Source: a virus
IMG/VR virus record: IMGVR_UViG_3300022188_000059
Coordinates: 1 to 22,242 of that record
Reading direction: 5' to 3' (one strand)
Length of the DNA: 22,242 bases
Shown in pieces: positions 2,372-8,272 of this stretch. The translations under genes were made by a program, and so were the position numbers. Within the stretch, counting starts at the first letter, position 1. Each line of letters opens with the position of its first letter. The notes beneath the pieces were generated by a model that was given only the letters and a program-made list of their open reading frames with translations, searched no databases and was not told the origin of the DNA.

Positions 2372-3757
2372 TTAAATATAGTCCTCTAAAGGGTTATACG
2401 CCATGTTAATTGCTTCAAGTTCTTCGAGTTCATCATACCTCTGGTCTGCATAAGTAGGTAGCATTTGGTCTTGTGTAGCCCTCAACCCCATCGCACAGGC
2501 TAACTGTCTAAACCCATCCGCGAAATGCTTTGACCAATCACGCACAGGAGAATCTGAGAACTTTTCTTTCTTCTCATCCCAGTCTCTACGGTATGATTTA
2601 AGCCCCTCAATCCCATCAGCACACTTGTTTCTATCGAACCAACACTTAGGCAAAATCTGTCGCATCGCATGATGCCCTTCTGATAGCCCGTACTTGTCAG
2701 CTAATCCTGTTTTAGGAACCGTAATAATGTTTTGTAAACCAAGATTCTCGAACGTCTCTCTTCGTGTCGTGCCTGTACTATACTCATGCACCTCTACATC
2801 ATGCGGAAAGAAGTGTTCTTCATAAGTGTACGGTTTCCTGTTCACTACATTAACATAGTGCGGAGCTGCTTTTCTATTCGCATAATAGCAATCAATCAAC
2901 CTTATCTCTCTACCTGCAAACTGGGTAAACCATATTACATTAGTATCATCAAAGCCTATATCCCAAGCGGTTGATACTTTAAGATTCGGCTCCCACGGTA
3001 CGTTTGTTATTCTACCCTCTTTACTGGCGGTATCCATCAAATCACCAACAATAGACCCCACAAGACCAGCATCAAAACTACAATAATACTCTTGCTGAAT
3101 CAACTCCTCTGGCATCCCAGACTGACGTTCGGCTTCGATATCTTCGTCGGTAATGACACGTTCTCCAGTCCCTTTACGGGTGTCCTCAACAGTAAGGAAC
3201 TCCGAAAACCACTTCTTGTTCGTCTTAGCATAGTTATACATCTTCCATGCTGTCCCTCTACCTCTGGGAGTACCGTTAAACAACGCCCATCCTTTGTTCT
3301 CGAGGAGTATAGGTCTGAGGTAATTCCATGCAGCAGGTTTATGAAGTGGAAACTCACTAAAGATTACTCCAACTGGATTCGCTCCGACAATGGAATCAAT
3401 GTTATCAGACCCCACCATTCTAATAATAGAACCATTAATAAGCTCCAGCACCATCTGCTGGTTCTCTCTCCGCTTCACCAGCTTCTCTGGAAAATGATCA
3501 ATGAATCTAAAGCCATCAGAGTCCATGCCTTCCCATATAATCAATCGTGCCTGTTTATAATATGGAAGGATATAGAAATAAGTCCCAACTCTCTTAAACG
3601 CTTCACGAGCAAGGATATTTATAAAGGTCTTGTCCTTACCTGCTCTCCGGTGCCATATCACAAAGCCCCTATTATACCCTTTAGACAGAGCATTATAGGT
3701 GTCCTTCTGATAATCACGAGGTGTAAAGTTATGCGGTATAGTTATAACATTATCCAT
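2372..3757 (-). CDS. Terminase large subunit (packaging ATPase/nuclease)
   Basis: A 461-aa packaging motor. Walker A is WHRRAGKDKT at 35-44. The Walker B region is VIFSEF at about 131-136, with the FSE form and following AAWNYLRPIL typical of this terminase group. The ATPase coupling motif is NGTPRGR at 161-167. The RNase H-like nuclease domain begins at AWDIGFDD (D266, D270) and ends near RDWSKHFADGFRQL, which supplies the late acidic residue. The protein cuts concatemeric DNA and pumps it through the portal. Its ATG shares one base with the stop of the small-subunit gene (TAATG), so the pair is translationally coupled. No key motif is missing. Confidence 0.94.
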   Translation of the reverse strand: MDNVITIPHNFTPRDYQKDTYNALSKGYNRGFVIWHRRAGKDKTFINILAREAFKRVGTYFYILPYYKQARLIIWEGMDSDGFRFIDHFPEKLVKRRENQQMVLELINGSIIRMVGSDNIDSIVGANPVGVIFSEFPLHKPAAWNYLRPILLENKGWALFNGTPRGRGTAWKMYNYAKTNKKWFSEFLTVEDTRKGTGERVITDEDIEAERQSGMPEELIQQEYYCSFDAGLVGSIVGDLMDTASKEGRITNVPWEPNLKVSTAWDIGFDDTNVIWFTQFAGREIRLIDCYYANRKAAPHYVNVVNRKPYTYEEHFFPHDVEVHEYSTGTTRRETFENLGLQNIITVPKTGLADKYGLSEGHHAMRQILPKCWFDRNKCADGIEGLKSYRRDWDEKKEKFSDSPVRDWSKHFADGFRQLACAMGLRATQDQMLPTYADQRYDELEELEAINMAYNPLEDYI

Positions 3758-4266
3758 TATTCAAATATATCCTTTATACTCACCTCTGGTGGAGGAGATG
3801 ACCCCTTCAAAGGGGAGGAGGAATTATCCTCTGAAGGAGTCTGACTGCCACCGGTGTCAATCTGAAGTTGACTAAGCTCCGATTGCGAAGGGTCGATGGC
3901 AGGTGCTGCATCATACTTTTGTGGATGTTGAGTATCGGTTGTTTGGTGTTGTGTTTTAGTAGTGGTATTCGCCTCCATCGCGATAGTAGCCCCGAACTGA
4001 TCAATGAGAGTCACTTTCAAATCAGCCAGATCATCAAGCTGCACACTCTTAGGAATGAGCTTGGCAAGCAATGCTAAGAACGCTTTGGGATCAATCGTTG
4101 CTTGTGTTATCAACCACGATGCCCCACCGAGTTGATTATACACCTCAAGAACAGAAGTAGCAAACTTACGTGGTGTCATCTTTACTGTGTCTTTTATATT
4201 CGGACCAACATATTTAGGTTGGTCTGGTATGTCTGGTTGCGGCTCAGTTAGAAAATTAAAGTCCAC
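3757..4266 (-). CDS. Putative terminase small subunit
   Basis: A 169-aa protein directly upstream of and overlapping the terminase large subunit gene. The central segment GGASWLITQATIDPKAFLALLAKLIPKSV resembles the conserved helix-turn stretch of a group of phage terminase small-subunit-like proteins (NPxAFLxLLxKxLP). The C-terminal 70 residues are Ser/Pro/Thr/Gln rich and probably disordered. They contain IDTGGS, encoded by a dispersed palindrome. The start is GTG at 4266-4264, chosen because GGAGG lies a few bases before it and no better ATG exists. The expected role is recognition of packaging DNA; assignment rests on position and the weak motif match. Confidence 0.75.
   Translation of the reverse strand: MDFNFLTEPQPDIPDQPKYVGPNIKDTVKMTPRKFATSVLEVYNQLGGASWLITQATIDPKAFLALLAKLIPKSVQLDDLADLKVTLIDQFGATIAMEANTTTKTQHQTTDTQHPQKYDAAPAIDPSQSELSQLQIDTGGSQTPSEDNSSSPLKGSSPPPEVSIKDIFE
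3843..3862. repeat. Dispersed palindrome copy, in frame in the terminase small subunit gene
   Basis: GACTGCCACCGGTGTCAATC. Read on the minus strand it encodes I-D-T-G-G-S in the disordered C-terminal tail. It is the same variant type (GATTGACAC) as the copies at 7957 and 8177. Confidence 0.85.
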
Positions 4267-4286
4267 GTTCCCTCCTTCTCTTCTTG

Positions 4287-4307
4287 GGTTGCTACTGGTG
4301 GCAGTCC
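4287..4307. repeat. Dispersed palindrome copy in the leader of the terminase small subunit gene
   Basis: GGTTGCTACTGGTGGCAGTCC. It lies between the promoter at 4335-4363 and the GGAGG/GTG start at 4266, a placement also seen for several plus-strand genes. Confidence 0.85.
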
Positions 4308-4334
4308 CGTTTCGTGTGAAAATATAATGTCTTT

Positions 4335-4363
4335 AGTATACCATGTTTAAGGTTGAATGTCAA
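4335..4363 (-). promoter_or_regulatory. Sigma-70-type promoter for terminase genes
   Basis: On the minus strand TTGACA (4363-4358), a 17-bp spacer and TATACT (4340-4335), with TGG before the -10. The -35 is followed by TTC as in the promoter at 2310-2338, so the two minus-strand promoters are close relatives. Confidence 0.85.
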
Positions 4364-4398
4364 GAGTTAAAATAAAGGGCAAAATAATAAATAAATAG

Positions 4399-4416
4399 TT
4401 GGCACGATACTTGCAT
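4399..4416 (+). promoter_or_regulatory. Sigma-54 (RpoN/SigL) promoter
   Basis: TTGGCACGATACTTGCAT matches the sigma-54 consensus TTGGCACR-N4-TTGCW throughout, with the required GG-N10-GC spacing (GG 4401-4402, GC 4413-4414). Transcription would start near 4426 and run rightwards into the hairpin-rich region. No upstream activator site was identified. Confidence 0.7.
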
Positions 4417-4441
4417 AGGGAGAATCCTGGATTTGAGAGTG

Positions 4442-4467
4442 GATTGCCACCAGGCTGCGGGGCAATC
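4442..4467. repeat. Hairpin with palindrome-family arms and an expanded loop
   Basis: GATTGCC (4442-4448) pairs with GGCAATC (4461-4467) across a 12-nt loop. The arms match the dispersed palindrome but the centre is replaced by a longer loop. It lies about 16 nt downstream of the predicted sigma-54 start. Confidence 0.7.
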
Positions 4468-4491
4468 AGGTATTGGAAGAGGGGTGAGTAC

Positions 4492-4563
4492 ATGGGCAAA
4501 CTGATTGGGGTTGTATTAGAGGGGTATACGGTGCGGTGGCAATCTGGTTGGAGGGTAGGCTGA
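4492..4563 (+). CDS. Possible 23-aa peptide downstream of the sigma-54 promoter
   Basis: ATG at 4492 reads MGKLIGVVLEGYTVRWQSG and ends at TGA 4561-4563. A GAGGGGTGA lies at a workable distance before the ATG. The frame runs through the left arm of the hairpin at 4538-4575. This is the only frame with a usable ribosome site near the sigma-54 promoter. No family is recognised and a chance frame this short is quite possible. Confidence 0.25.
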   Translation: MGKLIGVVLEGYTVRWQSGWRVG

Positions 4564-4575
4564 TACCAGATTGCC
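4538..4575. repeat. 11-bp perfect inverted repeat, 16-nt loop
   Basis: GGCAATCTGGT (4538-4548) pairs with ACCAGATTGCC (4565-4575). The arms contain the family half-site GGCAATC/GATTGCC but face each other the opposite way, as if the palindrome were turned inside out. Confidence 0.85.
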
Positions 4576-4590
4576 AACTCAGAACAGTTA

Positions 4591-4609
4591 GACTGCCACC
4601 AGGACAGTC
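4591..4609. repeat. Dispersed palindrome copy, degenerate
   Basis: GACTGCCACCAGGACAGTC: outer arms GACTG/CAGTC kept, right inner arm degraded. Confidence 0.7.
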
Positions 4610-4610
4610 C

Positions 4611-4627
4611 TTAACACTAAGTGTTAT
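4611..4627. promoter_or_regulatory. 17-bp operator-like dyad, copy 1
   Basis: TTAACACTAAGTGTTAT, a near-perfect dyad of the TTARCACY-N-RGTGYTAA type. It directly follows a degenerate dispersed palindrome. Confidence 0.65.
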
Positions 4628-4639
4628 TGGGTAAGCTAT

Positions 4640-4658
4640 GATCGACACCAGTGGCAGT
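4640..4658. repeat. Dispersed palindrome copy, degenerate
   Basis: GATCGACACCAGTGGCAGT: central CACCAGTG and the right arm kept, left arm altered. Confidence 0.65.
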
Positions 4659-4696
4659 ACGGGGGCGACTTAAAATGCTAATTTTTCTTAGTCGAA

Positions 4697-4822
4697 TTTT
4701 TTAAATTGAAAATTTTAAATTGAAAATTTAGGAGGCTAACTTTTTAAATTGAAAATTTTTAAATTGAAAATTTAGGAGGCTAACTTTTTTAAATTGAAAA
4801 TTTTTTAAATTGAAAATTTAGG
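4697..4822. repeat. Three 44-bp AT-rich direct repeats (candidate origin iterons)
   Basis: Units lie at 4697-4740, 4741-4784 and 4785-4822, the last truncated after AGG. Each contains two copies of TTTAAATTGAAAATTT, so AAATTGAAAA occurs six times. Units one and two end in TAGGAGGCTAAC. Units differ mainly in T-run length. The AGGAGG is not followed by a start codon, so this is not a ribosome site array. The form fits initiator-binding iterons or a DNA-unwinding element. Confidence 0.85.
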
Positions 4823-4938
4823 TCCCGCCTACATGCGTCCTTATAATAATAAATACGTCATCCAGTTTGGGGGTATGCCCCTCTGAAGCCCGCCCCATCA
4901 AATGCTATTCTGATATTTACTAAATGCCATTCATTTAA

Positions 4939-5046
4939 CGAATACTACGCAGCCAGTGAATACCCGCCAATCAATAGCTATTACGCAGTCGATAACTATT
5001 ACATATCCACTAAGCTCACCCCATTCGATAGCTATTATATATTCAT
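4939..5046. repeat. 18-bp periodic repeat array, about 6 degenerate units
   Basis: ATAGCTATTA occurs at 4974 and 5028, and ATAACTATTA at 4992. These sit at multiples of 18 bp, with a degenerate unit at 5010. TACGCAG at 4946 and 4982 is offset by 36 bp, extending the same period leftwards. The array ends in ATTCATTGAATGG, whose end pairs with CCATTCA at 4928-4934. Confidence 0.65.
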
Positions 5047-5053
5047 TGAATGG

Positions 5054-5073
5054 GACTGCTGCTGGTGTCAATT
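5054..5073. repeat. Dispersed palindrome copy, degenerate
   Basis: GACTGCTGCTGGTGTCAATT. It sits immediately right of the 18-bp array. A lone half-site GGCAGTCT follows at about 5174-5181. Confidence 0.7.
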
Positions 5074-5138
5074 CAGATATTCAGTGAAGGGCTTACTGCA
5101 AGTATCATGCCAGGTAGTACACAACATGAAGTGTTAAG

Positions 5139-5157
5139 GATTGTCACGGTGGCAATG
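5139..5157. repeat. Dispersed palindrome copy, degenerate
   Basis: GATTGTCACGGTGGCAAT: arms GATTG and CAAT kept, two bases lost at the centre. Confidence 0.6.
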
Positions 5158-5455
5158 TAAATGTTTGGATGTTGGCAGTCTGAAGCAAGGGGATTCGCAC
5201 ACAAAAAGCCTGTTATGAGTAGCGTTTTTGTAACTATCTGATTTTATTCATGTTGTTAGTTGTGCATAGTAAAAGTCGTTTCTATGATTCGAAATTGACA
5301 AAAAGTCAAAAACGTAACCTATGGGGTTACACACCAATATTCTCTATAATCACTAAAAAGCAATCTACTGATAACACTAAGAACATTAGTAAAATCAAGT
5401 ACTTACACCATTTATCCCTGGATATCAGCCATTTATCGGCGGTTCCGGCAAACTT

Positions 5456-5472
5456 TTAACACACGGTGCTAA
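5456..5472. promoter_or_regulatory. 17-bp operator-like dyad, copy 2
   Basis: TTAACACACGGTGCTAA: half-sites TTAACAC and GTGCTAA with the same 17-bp length as the other copies. Confidence 0.6.
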
Positions 5473-5522
5473 TAGAATGACCGCCAACATTCCACAATCT
5501 CATAAAACAGTCTGTTATTTTG

Positions 5523-5539
5523 TTAGCACTGAGTATTAA
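5523..5539. promoter_or_regulatory. 17-bp operator-like dyad, copy 3
   Basis: TTAGCACTGAGTATTAA, an imperfect dyad of the same length and outer half-sites. Confidence 0.55.
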
Positions 5540-5556
5540 AACAGCAGGTTTGCGGG

Positions 5557-5573
5557 TTAACACCAGGTGTTAA
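5557..5573. promoter_or_regulatory. 17-bp operator-like dyad, copy 4 (perfect)
   Basis: TTAACACCAGGTGTTAA is a perfect 8+1+8 palindrome and the best representative of the motif. Confidence 0.7.
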
Positions 5574-5624
5574 AGTTGACCTTATTTAATTTCGGCTAAA
5601 ACCGGAGCTTAAATTTATACCCTG

Positions 5625-5641
5625 GTAGCACTTAGTGTTAC
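5625..5641. promoter_or_regulatory. 17-bp operator-like dyad, copy 5
   Basis: GTAGCACTTAGTGTTAC, one mismatch from a perfect dyad. It abuts a small hairpin, CGGACT (5641-5646) with AGTCCG (5659-5664). Confidence 0.6.
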
Positions 5642-5694
5642 GGACTCAATCGGGTGTCAGTCCGGAATCAGATGTTCTATTTCTATAACTTAAT

Positions 5695-5723
5695 CTAAAA
5701 TAATAAATAATTTATTATTTTAG
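5695..5723. repeat. AT-rich 13-bp inverted repeat upstream of the early promoter
   Basis: CTAAAATAATAAA (5695-5707) pairs perfectly with TTTATTATTTTAG (5711-5723) across 3 nt. It ends 12 bp before the -35 box, where an UP-like element or a regulator site could sit. Confidence 0.75.
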
Positions 5724-5735
5724 CCGTAATAGTTG

Positions 5736-5764
5736 TTGACACTGATTTTTACCCATGCTATTAT
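5736..5764 (+). promoter_or_regulatory. Sigma-70-type early promoter
   Basis: TTGACA (5736-5741), a 17-bp spacer and TATTAT (5759-5764) with TGC before the -10. It is the natural start of the rightward transcript beginning at the 5831 gene. The 17-bp dyads end about 95 bp upstream. Confidence 0.85.
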
Positions 5765-5830
5765 TCTACCTAACAGTGAGAGTTTTAAACACAAACAAAC
5801 AGTCAACCTTTAAACAGGAGGCAACAAAAA

Positions 5831-6040
5831 ATGGCAAAGGTAATAAAACCTTGTAAAGACATAACTGACACTAACAGTAGAACACTTGCAAAACAGCACC
5901 AACAGCTCAGGGAGGAGATTTATCGGTTAACAGCTGATTTGCACCGTGTAGAAGACAAGCTCAAAAAAGCGCTTGTTAACGAAAATCTGAGCCAATTGCT
6001 AATCATAAAACCTGCGGCGCTAAGAAATTTACTTAAATAG
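5831..6040 (+). CDS. Small coiled-coil protein, unknown function
   Basis: A 69-aa protein and the first gene after the early promoter, with AGGAGG before the ATG. Residues from about 20 to 50 (LAKQHQQLREEIYRLTADL, then HRVEDKLKKAL) form a heptad-like amphipathic helix that is probably a coiled coil. No family is recognised. A promoter-proximal position in the rightward transcript is typical of host-takeover or regulatory peptides, but no function can be claimed. Confidence 0.7.
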   Translation: MAKVIKPCKDITDTNSRTLAKQHQQLREEIYRLTADLHRVEDKLKKALVNENLSQLLIIKPAALRNLLK

Positions 6041-6053
6041 GAGGGCAACAAAA

Positions 6054-6869
6054 ATGACTGAAGACAAAAAACCAGTAACAACTTTAAAAAGCGTACTCAA
6101 CAGCAATGAGCTTGAAATGTTAAATCAAGCTCGGGGAGTTTGGCAAAAATTGACCGGTGATTCAACAAACCGCCTGCAAGATATGGCAGATATCGGGTAT
6201 GCCATTGAACTGATTTACTCTAAGGGTAGAAAGAAAGGGCTAAAAAAGCAGGAGATAACGACAATGGTCAATTTGTCATTCCCAGGTTTGAGCGCCGTTG
6301 AGCGTAGCGAATTTCGCAAGCTAAACAAAAATATCGAGCAAGTATCTTGTTTCGTACGTGATACGGGCATAAAATCATGCAATACATCGTACCTGATTTC
6401 GTCATACGTTAAGGCAGTCAAAGAAGACTGCCAATCCTGCAAGGATATTGAAGCGGAATTGAGAAGGGGGTTGATTAAGCTCGCATCTGATTCAAAAGAA
6501 AGTGACGCACCTGATTCAAAAGATTCAGACGATTCAAAGGAAAGCGACGCACCTGATTCAAAAGATTCAGACGATTCAAAGGAAAGTGGTGCACCTGATT
6601 CAGATAATTCAGATGATGGCAAAAGAAAAAAAATCATTTTAGGAGACGTGATTAAGAAGGAAGGATACGACAACATTGTTAGACCGATAAAATCGGCTGA
6701 CATTGTTGAAAATTTCGGGCTGATAGTAAATCAGTTAAAAACCTTGTTTAATGAGGATAAATTGAGCGCGGATCAAAAGATTGAAATTGACAAACACGGG
6801 ACATCTCTGCTAAAACACATGGCAGGAATCGACGCAAGTAGCAGCGAGTTTGATAAAATAGCAATTTAA
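6054..6869 (+). CDS. Hypothetical early protein with internal Ser/Asp repeats
   Basis: A 271-aa protein preceded by GGAGGG. The N-terminal ~140 residues look folded and mostly helical. They include a basic patch (YSKGRKKGLKKQE) and three cysteines in the QSCKDIE and IKSCNTS areas. Residues about 146-190 are three copies of a 14-aa acidic repeat, DSKESDAPDSKDSD, acting as a highly charged flexible linker. The C-terminal ~80 residues (from KRKKIILGDVIKKEGYDNI) look helical again. I do not recognise the family. Two domains joined by an acidic linker would fit a DNA- or protein-binding early protein. Confidence 0.75.
   Translation: MTEDKKPVTTLKSVLNSNELEMLNQARGVWQKLTGDSTNRLQDMADIGYAIELIYSKGRKKGLKKQEITTMVNLSFPGLSAVERSEFRKLNKNIEQVSCFVRDTGIKSCNTSYLISSYVKAVKEDCQSCKDIEAELRRGLIKLASDSKESDAPDSKDSDDSKESDAPDSKDSDDSKESGAPDSDNSDDGKRKKIILGDVIKKEGYDNIVRPIKSADIVENFGLIVNQLKTLFNEDKLSADQKIEIDKHGTSLLKHMAGIDASSSEFDKIAI
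6489..6614 (+). repeat. 42-bp tandem repeat, 3 units, coding
   Basis: Units at 6489-6530, 6531-6572 and 6573-6614, each 14 codons. The first two are nearly identical and the third has diverged, with Asp to Gly and Lys to Asp changes. Confidence 0.85.
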
Positions 6870-7143: not shown

Positions 7144-7177
7144 GGTTACAATGTTATAGAGATATAACATTGTAACC
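7144..7177. repeat. 15-bp hairpin with GAGA tetraloop; AATGTTATA dyad copy 1
   Basis: Arms 7144-7158 and 7163-7177 pair perfectly around GAGA, a GNRA loop. The inner part is AATGTTATA-N4-TATAACATT. The hairpin is followed by a run of A, not T, so it is not a standard plus-strand intrinsic terminator. An RNA-stabilising 3' stem or a protein site is more likely. Confidence 0.85.
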
Positions 7178-7242: not shown

Positions 7243-7283
7243 TTTAGCTGTAATGTTATAGAAAATATAACATTACAGCTAAA
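7243..7283. repeat. 18-bp hairpin with GAAAA loop; AATGTTATA dyad copy 2
   Basis: Arms 7243-7260 and 7266-7283 pair perfectly, with inner AATGTTATA-N5-TATAACATT. Again an A-run follows. Confidence 0.85.
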
Positions 7284-7336
7284 AAAATAATTAAAATAAA
7301 TAAATATTAGAACCATATTTATTTTAATTATTTTTT
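7282..7336. terminator. 21-bp AT-rich inverted repeat with terminal T-run (possible terminator)
   Basis: Arms 7282-7302 and 7316-7336 pair perfectly across 13 nt. The right arm ends in six T. The stem has almost no G or C, so termination efficiency is doubtful; a structural or processing role is the alternative. Confidence 0.55.
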
Positions 7337-7697: not shown

Positions 7698-7704
7698 AAA
7701 ACAA

Positions 7705-7728
7705 GAATGTTATAGTTCTATAACATTC
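7705..7728. promoter_or_regulatory. AATGTTATA dyad copy 3
   Basis: GAATGTTATAG, TT, CTATAACATTC: a perfect 11-bp dyad about 40 bp downstream of the likely start of the 7628 promoter. The tight centre suits a DNA operator better than an RNA loop. Confidence 0.75.
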
Positions 7729-7759
7729 AATCGATCAAATTCAGACGGGAGGACAAATC

Positions 7760-8213: not shown

Positions 8214-8221
8214 CGGCGCAG

Positions 8222-8243
8222 AATGTTATAGATCTATAACGTT
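8222..8243. promoter_or_regulatory. AATGTTATA dyad copy 4
   Basis: AATGTTATA (8222-8230), GATC, TATAACGTT (8235-8243), one mismatch. The inner GTTATAGATCTATAAC is a perfect 16-bp palindrome. It lies in the leader of the ParB-like gene. Confidence 0.75.
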
Positions 8244-8272
8244 TAAGTACAATTCATTTTTTAAGTACAATT
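8242..8272 (+). repeat. Two 13-bp direct repeats in the ParB-like gene leader
   Basis: TTTAAGTACAATT at 8242-8254 and 8260-8272, followed by a partial TTTAAG. The first overlaps the end of the dyad at 8222-8243. Confidence 0.7.

Follow-up and report, generated by a model that had tools for sequence, protein, structure and literature searches.

Bacterial RNA polymerase carrying sigma-54 (RpoN) stays inactive until it is unlocked by an activator that responds to a signal. Bacterial RpoN promoters of the -24/-12 class share a GG-N10-GC core within a TGGCAY...TTGCW context, as in the E. coli pspG promoter, TTGGCATGATTCTTGTA (PMC4591121). Phages have been linked to the sigma-54 system through proteins, as with the phage-encoded sigma-54-type regulator of phi1422 (PMC3391216) and the putative sigma-54-like factor of phage Q19 (PMC7693777). 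Within the open phage literature sigma-54 figures only in the form of proteins or host factors, and our search of that literature, which takes in few subscription journals, returned no account of phage genomes with conserved sigma-54 promoters or with arrays of them. We regard the novelty of such promoters as provisional.

The locus described here differs from each of its closest described counterparts. Like phi1422 and Q19 it links phages to sigma-54, but it does so through cis sites, and no phage-encoded sigma-54 activator (PF00158) was found in 25 phage records of its relatives, many of which are fragments. It shares the core and context of bacterial RpoN promoters and scores in the range of verified sites, yet it lies on a phage genome, beside a terminase operon and with no gene directly downstream. 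Finally, it resembles the divergent control regions of tailed phages, with their sigma-70 promoters and phage repressors, in being a regulatory spacer between leftward packaging and rightward replication genes, except that one arm is sigma-54-type rather than a sigma-70 or phage polymerase promoter.

The sigma-54-type site and its genomic setting

The window, by which we mean the whole stretch of DNA analysed, is a virus contig of 22,242 bases. Its plus strand carries a putative sigma-54-type promoter, TTGGCACGATACTTGCAT, at 4399-4416, with GG at 4401-4402, GC at 4413-4414 and ten bases between them in a TGGCAY-N5-TTGCW context; transcription is predicted to start at about 4425-4427. The initial annotation had read this 18-mer as a -24/-12 consensus with GG-N10-GC spacing, and our check of the sequence agrees. 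Scored on a matrix derived from 29 sigma-54 sites in intergenic DNA of S. Typhimurium (PMC3844500), the 18-mer reaches 21.2 bits, inside the 15.5-24.5 bits of the reference sites and above their median of 19.2. In 100 Markov shuffles of the window the best score was 20.4, short of this value. The same matrix assigned 16.8 bits to a second sigma-54-type site, CTGGCATGATACTTGCAG, which the initial annotation had missed, and 12.7 bits to the next best position in the window. This second site, at 5096-5113 on the minus strand, is an inverted near-copy of the 18-mer and is convergent with it across about 0.7 kb. A single 18-mer could arise by chance in a large scan, but only 0.02 copies with three or fewer mismatches are expected per window and two were found, which counts against a match without function.

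Both sites fall within 4267-5830, a 1.56-kb interval between operons that holds no convincing gene, so that the gene-poor surroundings originally described for the 18-mer hold for this interval. Leftward of it, on the minus strand, lie a 169-aa gene for a probable small terminase (3757-4266), with homologues in L118 and L002, directly before the gene for the 461-aa terminase large subunit (TerL; 2372-3757), recognised by tblastn to annotated TerL, and a head-tail connector or portal gene (405-2063; PF12236, E 9e-121). This terminase operon has its own predicted sigma-70 promoter, TTGACA-17-TATACT, at 4335-4363 on the minus strand (11/12 matches), back to back with the sigma-54-type site. On the other side, a sigma-70 promoter at 5736-5764 on the plus strand (TTGACA-17-TATTAT, 11/12 matches) would serve the rightward replication operon, whose genes start at 5831. 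The earlier statement that all other promoters are of sigma-70 type is therefore true of the recognisable promoters of the flanking operons. The first two rightward genes (5831-6869, plus strand) are followed by ParB-like, DUF2800, SSB/annealing-like, DNA polymerase A and primase-helicase genes. No homology was found between the 271-aa gene of the window and a similarly placed 244-aa gene in L002. Two small ORFs of the spacer, one of 54 aa that starts inside the motif and one of 23 codons at 4493, were discarded as candidate genes, neither being kept in the relatives when the alignment was inspected by eye.

Several repeats were seen elsewhere in the window. The 271-aa gene contains an in-frame 42-bp tandem repeat (6489-6628), and its counterpart in G001 ends in a DELDEL repeat. 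Three copies of a 27-bp near-palindrome, AGAATGTTATAG..CTATAACATTC, stand upstream of small rightward genes at 7148-7174, 7704-7730 and 8220-8246, and at 7282-7336 two 21-bp arms made up of A and T form a perfect inverted repeat around a 13-base loop. The contig opens with a 12-bp tandem repeat, GGTGTAGCCGGT, at 1-112, where the assembly probably broke.

Conservation of the site and its flanking elements

TerL searches yielded two groups of relatives, with identities of 67-78% and 51-55%. Among the eight distinct close relatives in which the spacer is covered, the strict site is kept in seven (L122, L124, L125/L126, which are one phage, L127, L129, L132, which is G001, and L002), always with the same strand and neighbours: it lies upstream of the small terminase gene and by the divergent sigma-70 promoter from which the terminase operon would be transcribed, itself recognisable as TATA..TGTCAAG. 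Substitutions occur only at positions on which the consensus places no demand: the C/T of TGGCAY, the central bases and the base after TTGCA. The form found in relatives, TTGGCATGATTCTTGCA, differs from the E. coli pspG site at one of 17 bases. The rest of the spacer is poorly conserved, save for the sigma-70 elements, hairpin-like repeats and a block some 190 bp downstream (CAGTTAGAYTGCCACC..GACARTCC(G/T)TAACA; 4584-4616, plus strand). The initial annotation had named the loss of GG or GC from close relatives as an observation that would speak against the promoter, and none of these seven shows it. The sole exception among the eight, L123, is without the entire promoter-leader segment from the sigma-70 promoter to the conserved downstream block. 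L123 retains both of those bordering elements, which makes it a natural comparison useful for function.

The near-complete genomes G001, G006 and G007 (34-42 kb) each contain exactly one strict site, at this place. In G016, G017 and G018, a subgroup about 53% identical to the window, there is instead a convergent pair of sites about 220 bp apart, and the window likewise has a convergent pair. The reversed-pattern control matched once in each of these three genomes and nowhere else among the genomes compared. More distant TerL relatives (36-48%) gave only background matches to the motif. Conservation of place and strand, together with the matrix score, supports the sigma-54 promoter call and the conclusion that 4399-4416 is a sigma-54-type promoter site under selection.

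Downstream of the site, the hairpin that comes first in the predicted leader, GATTGCCACC...GGGCAATC (4441-4469, plus strand), occurs in the same place in most relatives. The predicted leader fold is no more stable than that of shuffled sequences (z -0.53) and the leader has no match in Rfam; a structured noncoding RNA was set aside as a candidate on these grounds. No strong terminator was found between the site and an array of about eight AT-rich direct repeats, TTTTTAAATTGAAAA, at 4697-4822. Because the leader fold is ordinary and no strong terminator precedes the array, read-through is as plausible a fate for a transcript as a discrete RNA. The array is possibly a replication origin or unwinding region. 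An equivalent array is present in L118 (about 3180-3300), and the AT-rich arrays of relatives, which differ in sequence and keep the same place, are likewise reminiscent of a replication origin or unwinding element.

Upstream, the initial annotation had suggested looking for activator-binding repeats 80-200 bp from the site. A dyad, GGTTGCTACTGGTGGCAGTC, does lie in that range (4287-4306, centred 104 bp upstream), but it recurs throughout the window, 19 copies in all, and is therefore not specific evidence for an activator site. The distance between dyad and site in relatives varies from 38 to 140 bp, and in L124 and L127 it is only about 40 bp, too near for a usual enhancer. The dyad was dropped as a candidate activator site in view of its copy number and these variable distances. 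Viewed genome-wide, this 20-bp dyad, GAYTGCYACNNGTRGCARTC, has 19 copies in the window (381-21565), 19 in G001 and 23 in G007, and is also present in L002, L124 and others. Copies recur at intervals of roughly 1-2 kb, both within genes and at their borders, and a Markov control predicts none. The dyad looks like a dispersed operator of the stoperator or parS kind. The 53% subgroup is without it and seems to carry a different palindrome in its sigma-54 spacer.

Sites and arrays across viral contigs

The window site is one instance of a widespread phage feature. Scanning of a viral collection located TGGCAYGATACTTGCA in 103 stretches and its reversed control in 11; for TTGGCAYGATTCTTGCAT the number was at least 120. 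Most of the unique contexts (148 of 192) are intergenic, and many have extra sites within 400 bp on either strand, as against none of seven control contexts. When the seed sites were excluded, the neighbourhoods contained 190 TGGYAY sites at N10 spacing compared with 9 at N9 and 5 at N11. The base preferences of these neighbourhood sites follow the sigma-54 consensus, weak flank positions included; the flank comparison uses the consensus reportedly published by Barrios and colleagues. Enrichment specific to the N10 spacing, and retention of the site by relatives in a spacer that is otherwise poorly conserved, led us to reject a chance match, the probability of which we consider negligible.

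Tandem pairs are found in at least 120 viral stretches, compared with three when the internal spacing is made one base short. Some contigs carry arrays of five to ten sites, both tandem and inverted, unlike bacterial RpoN promoters: the tandem form occurs in two of the 398 Pseudomonadota genomes sampled and is absent from the other 396. Up to ten sites in one intergenic region were noted in apparently unrelated phages (L052, L280, L233, L042, L225, L229, L267, L282 and L246). Position relative to TerL was counted over 57 distinct loci with a TerL detectable from that of the window; every one of the 145 nearby sites was upstream of that gene, with 98 directed away from it and 47 toward it, although these loci were selected by motif and many are related, so the counts do not represent independent events. 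Within a clade the sites keep a consistent orientation, as would be expected of a promoter. The genes opposite the main direction of the arrays often encode endolysin or terminase of several families, while those downstream are mostly without recognised function, apart from one ArdC-like anti-restriction gene.

Two other explanations of such a distribution deserve attention. Many phages carry as many as ten sites, in both orientations and next to packaging genes, and around the window site neither a conserved activator site nor a notable RNA fold was found. This might be expected if the sites were decoys or roadblocks, at which inert closed complexes titrate RpoN or park polymerase to control genome entry, replication or packaging, with no RNA as their purpose. 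We think this unlikely, though not negligible: the window family keeps a single site with a fixed strand and neighbourhood, and array orientation is biased and clade-consistent, which a sponge would not need. Alternatively, the motif could resemble a sigma-54 promoter by coincidence and be bound by a phage-encoded protein, perhaps a replication initiator or, at pac/cos, the small terminase. Its invariable position upstream of a recognised TerL, the nearby AT-rich array and the inverted pairs of several phages would suit such a protein, but the motif matches chromosomal sigma-54 sites, and the consensus, its free positions and its flank preferences are the same across different terminase families. 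Phage proteins that evolve fast would not preserve a single 16-bp motif in this way, and we consider this explanation very improbable. A terminase recognition (pac/cos) site in particular was rejected, the motif being common to several TerL families rather than family-specific in sequence.

A probable host-dependent promoter and its predicted hosts

Our preferred interpretation is that 4399-4416 is probably a promoter for the host sigma-54 RNA polymerase, firing rightwards into the noncoding spacer. Its observed basis is the motif, the match to real sigma-54 sites, the conserved place and strand, and membership in a widespread feature. Against it stand the arrays in both orientations in other phages, which are unusual for bacterial sigma-54 promoters, the lack of the site in L123, and the identity of the upstream dyad as a genome-wide repeat. 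We hypothesize that sigma-54 holoenzyme would bind GG and GC at -24 and -12 as a closed complex, which an activated host enhancer-binding protein would convert into a transcript starting near 4426. Such a transcript would cross the noncoding spacer with its AT-rich repeats in the rightward direction, leaving the terminase operon behind it. It may extend into the replication genes and could affect phage growth. That strand and position are fixed within clades argues for a directional role. With sigma-54 and sigma-70 promoters back to back, the junction would give the phage one promoter that depends on host state and one ordinary promoter.

More broadly, we put at about even the chance that many diverse uncultivated tailed phages carry sigma-54 promoter sites, frequently as tandem or inverted arrays, beside the packaging operon, and that the host's enhancer-dependent polymerase is thereby a standard control input to, or target of, their infection cycle. 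Such phages may use a tightly regulated host transcription system that is not usually regarded as a phage control point. Because this polymerase depends on an activator, a phage that relied on it would read the state of its host (nitrogen, envelope stress or other) before part of its programme.

This interpretation predicts rpoN in the hosts of array-bearing phages. Three MAGs with distant TerL relatives (42-52% identity) all have rpoN (PF04552), a weak indication that the host has it, although the contigs concerned are possibly misbinned phage DNA. Named phages are less than 60% identical to the window in TerL, portal and polymerase, and no DNA-level relatives of the spacer were found among named phages and plasmids. 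Strict and relaxed sites alike are absent from two Pelagibacter phages, whose hosts, to our knowledge, are without sigma-54. ZP6, BUCT555 and ct3Et533 also have neither strict nor relaxed sites, and the hosts of ZP6 and BUCT555 presumably have sigma-54, so the absence from Pelagibacter phages is weak evidence. None of the TerL relatives examined is an array-bearing isolate with a known host; only the uncultivated ctVRi840 (MW202742) has a site pair, with two strict sites 0.5-0.7 kb upstream of TerL.
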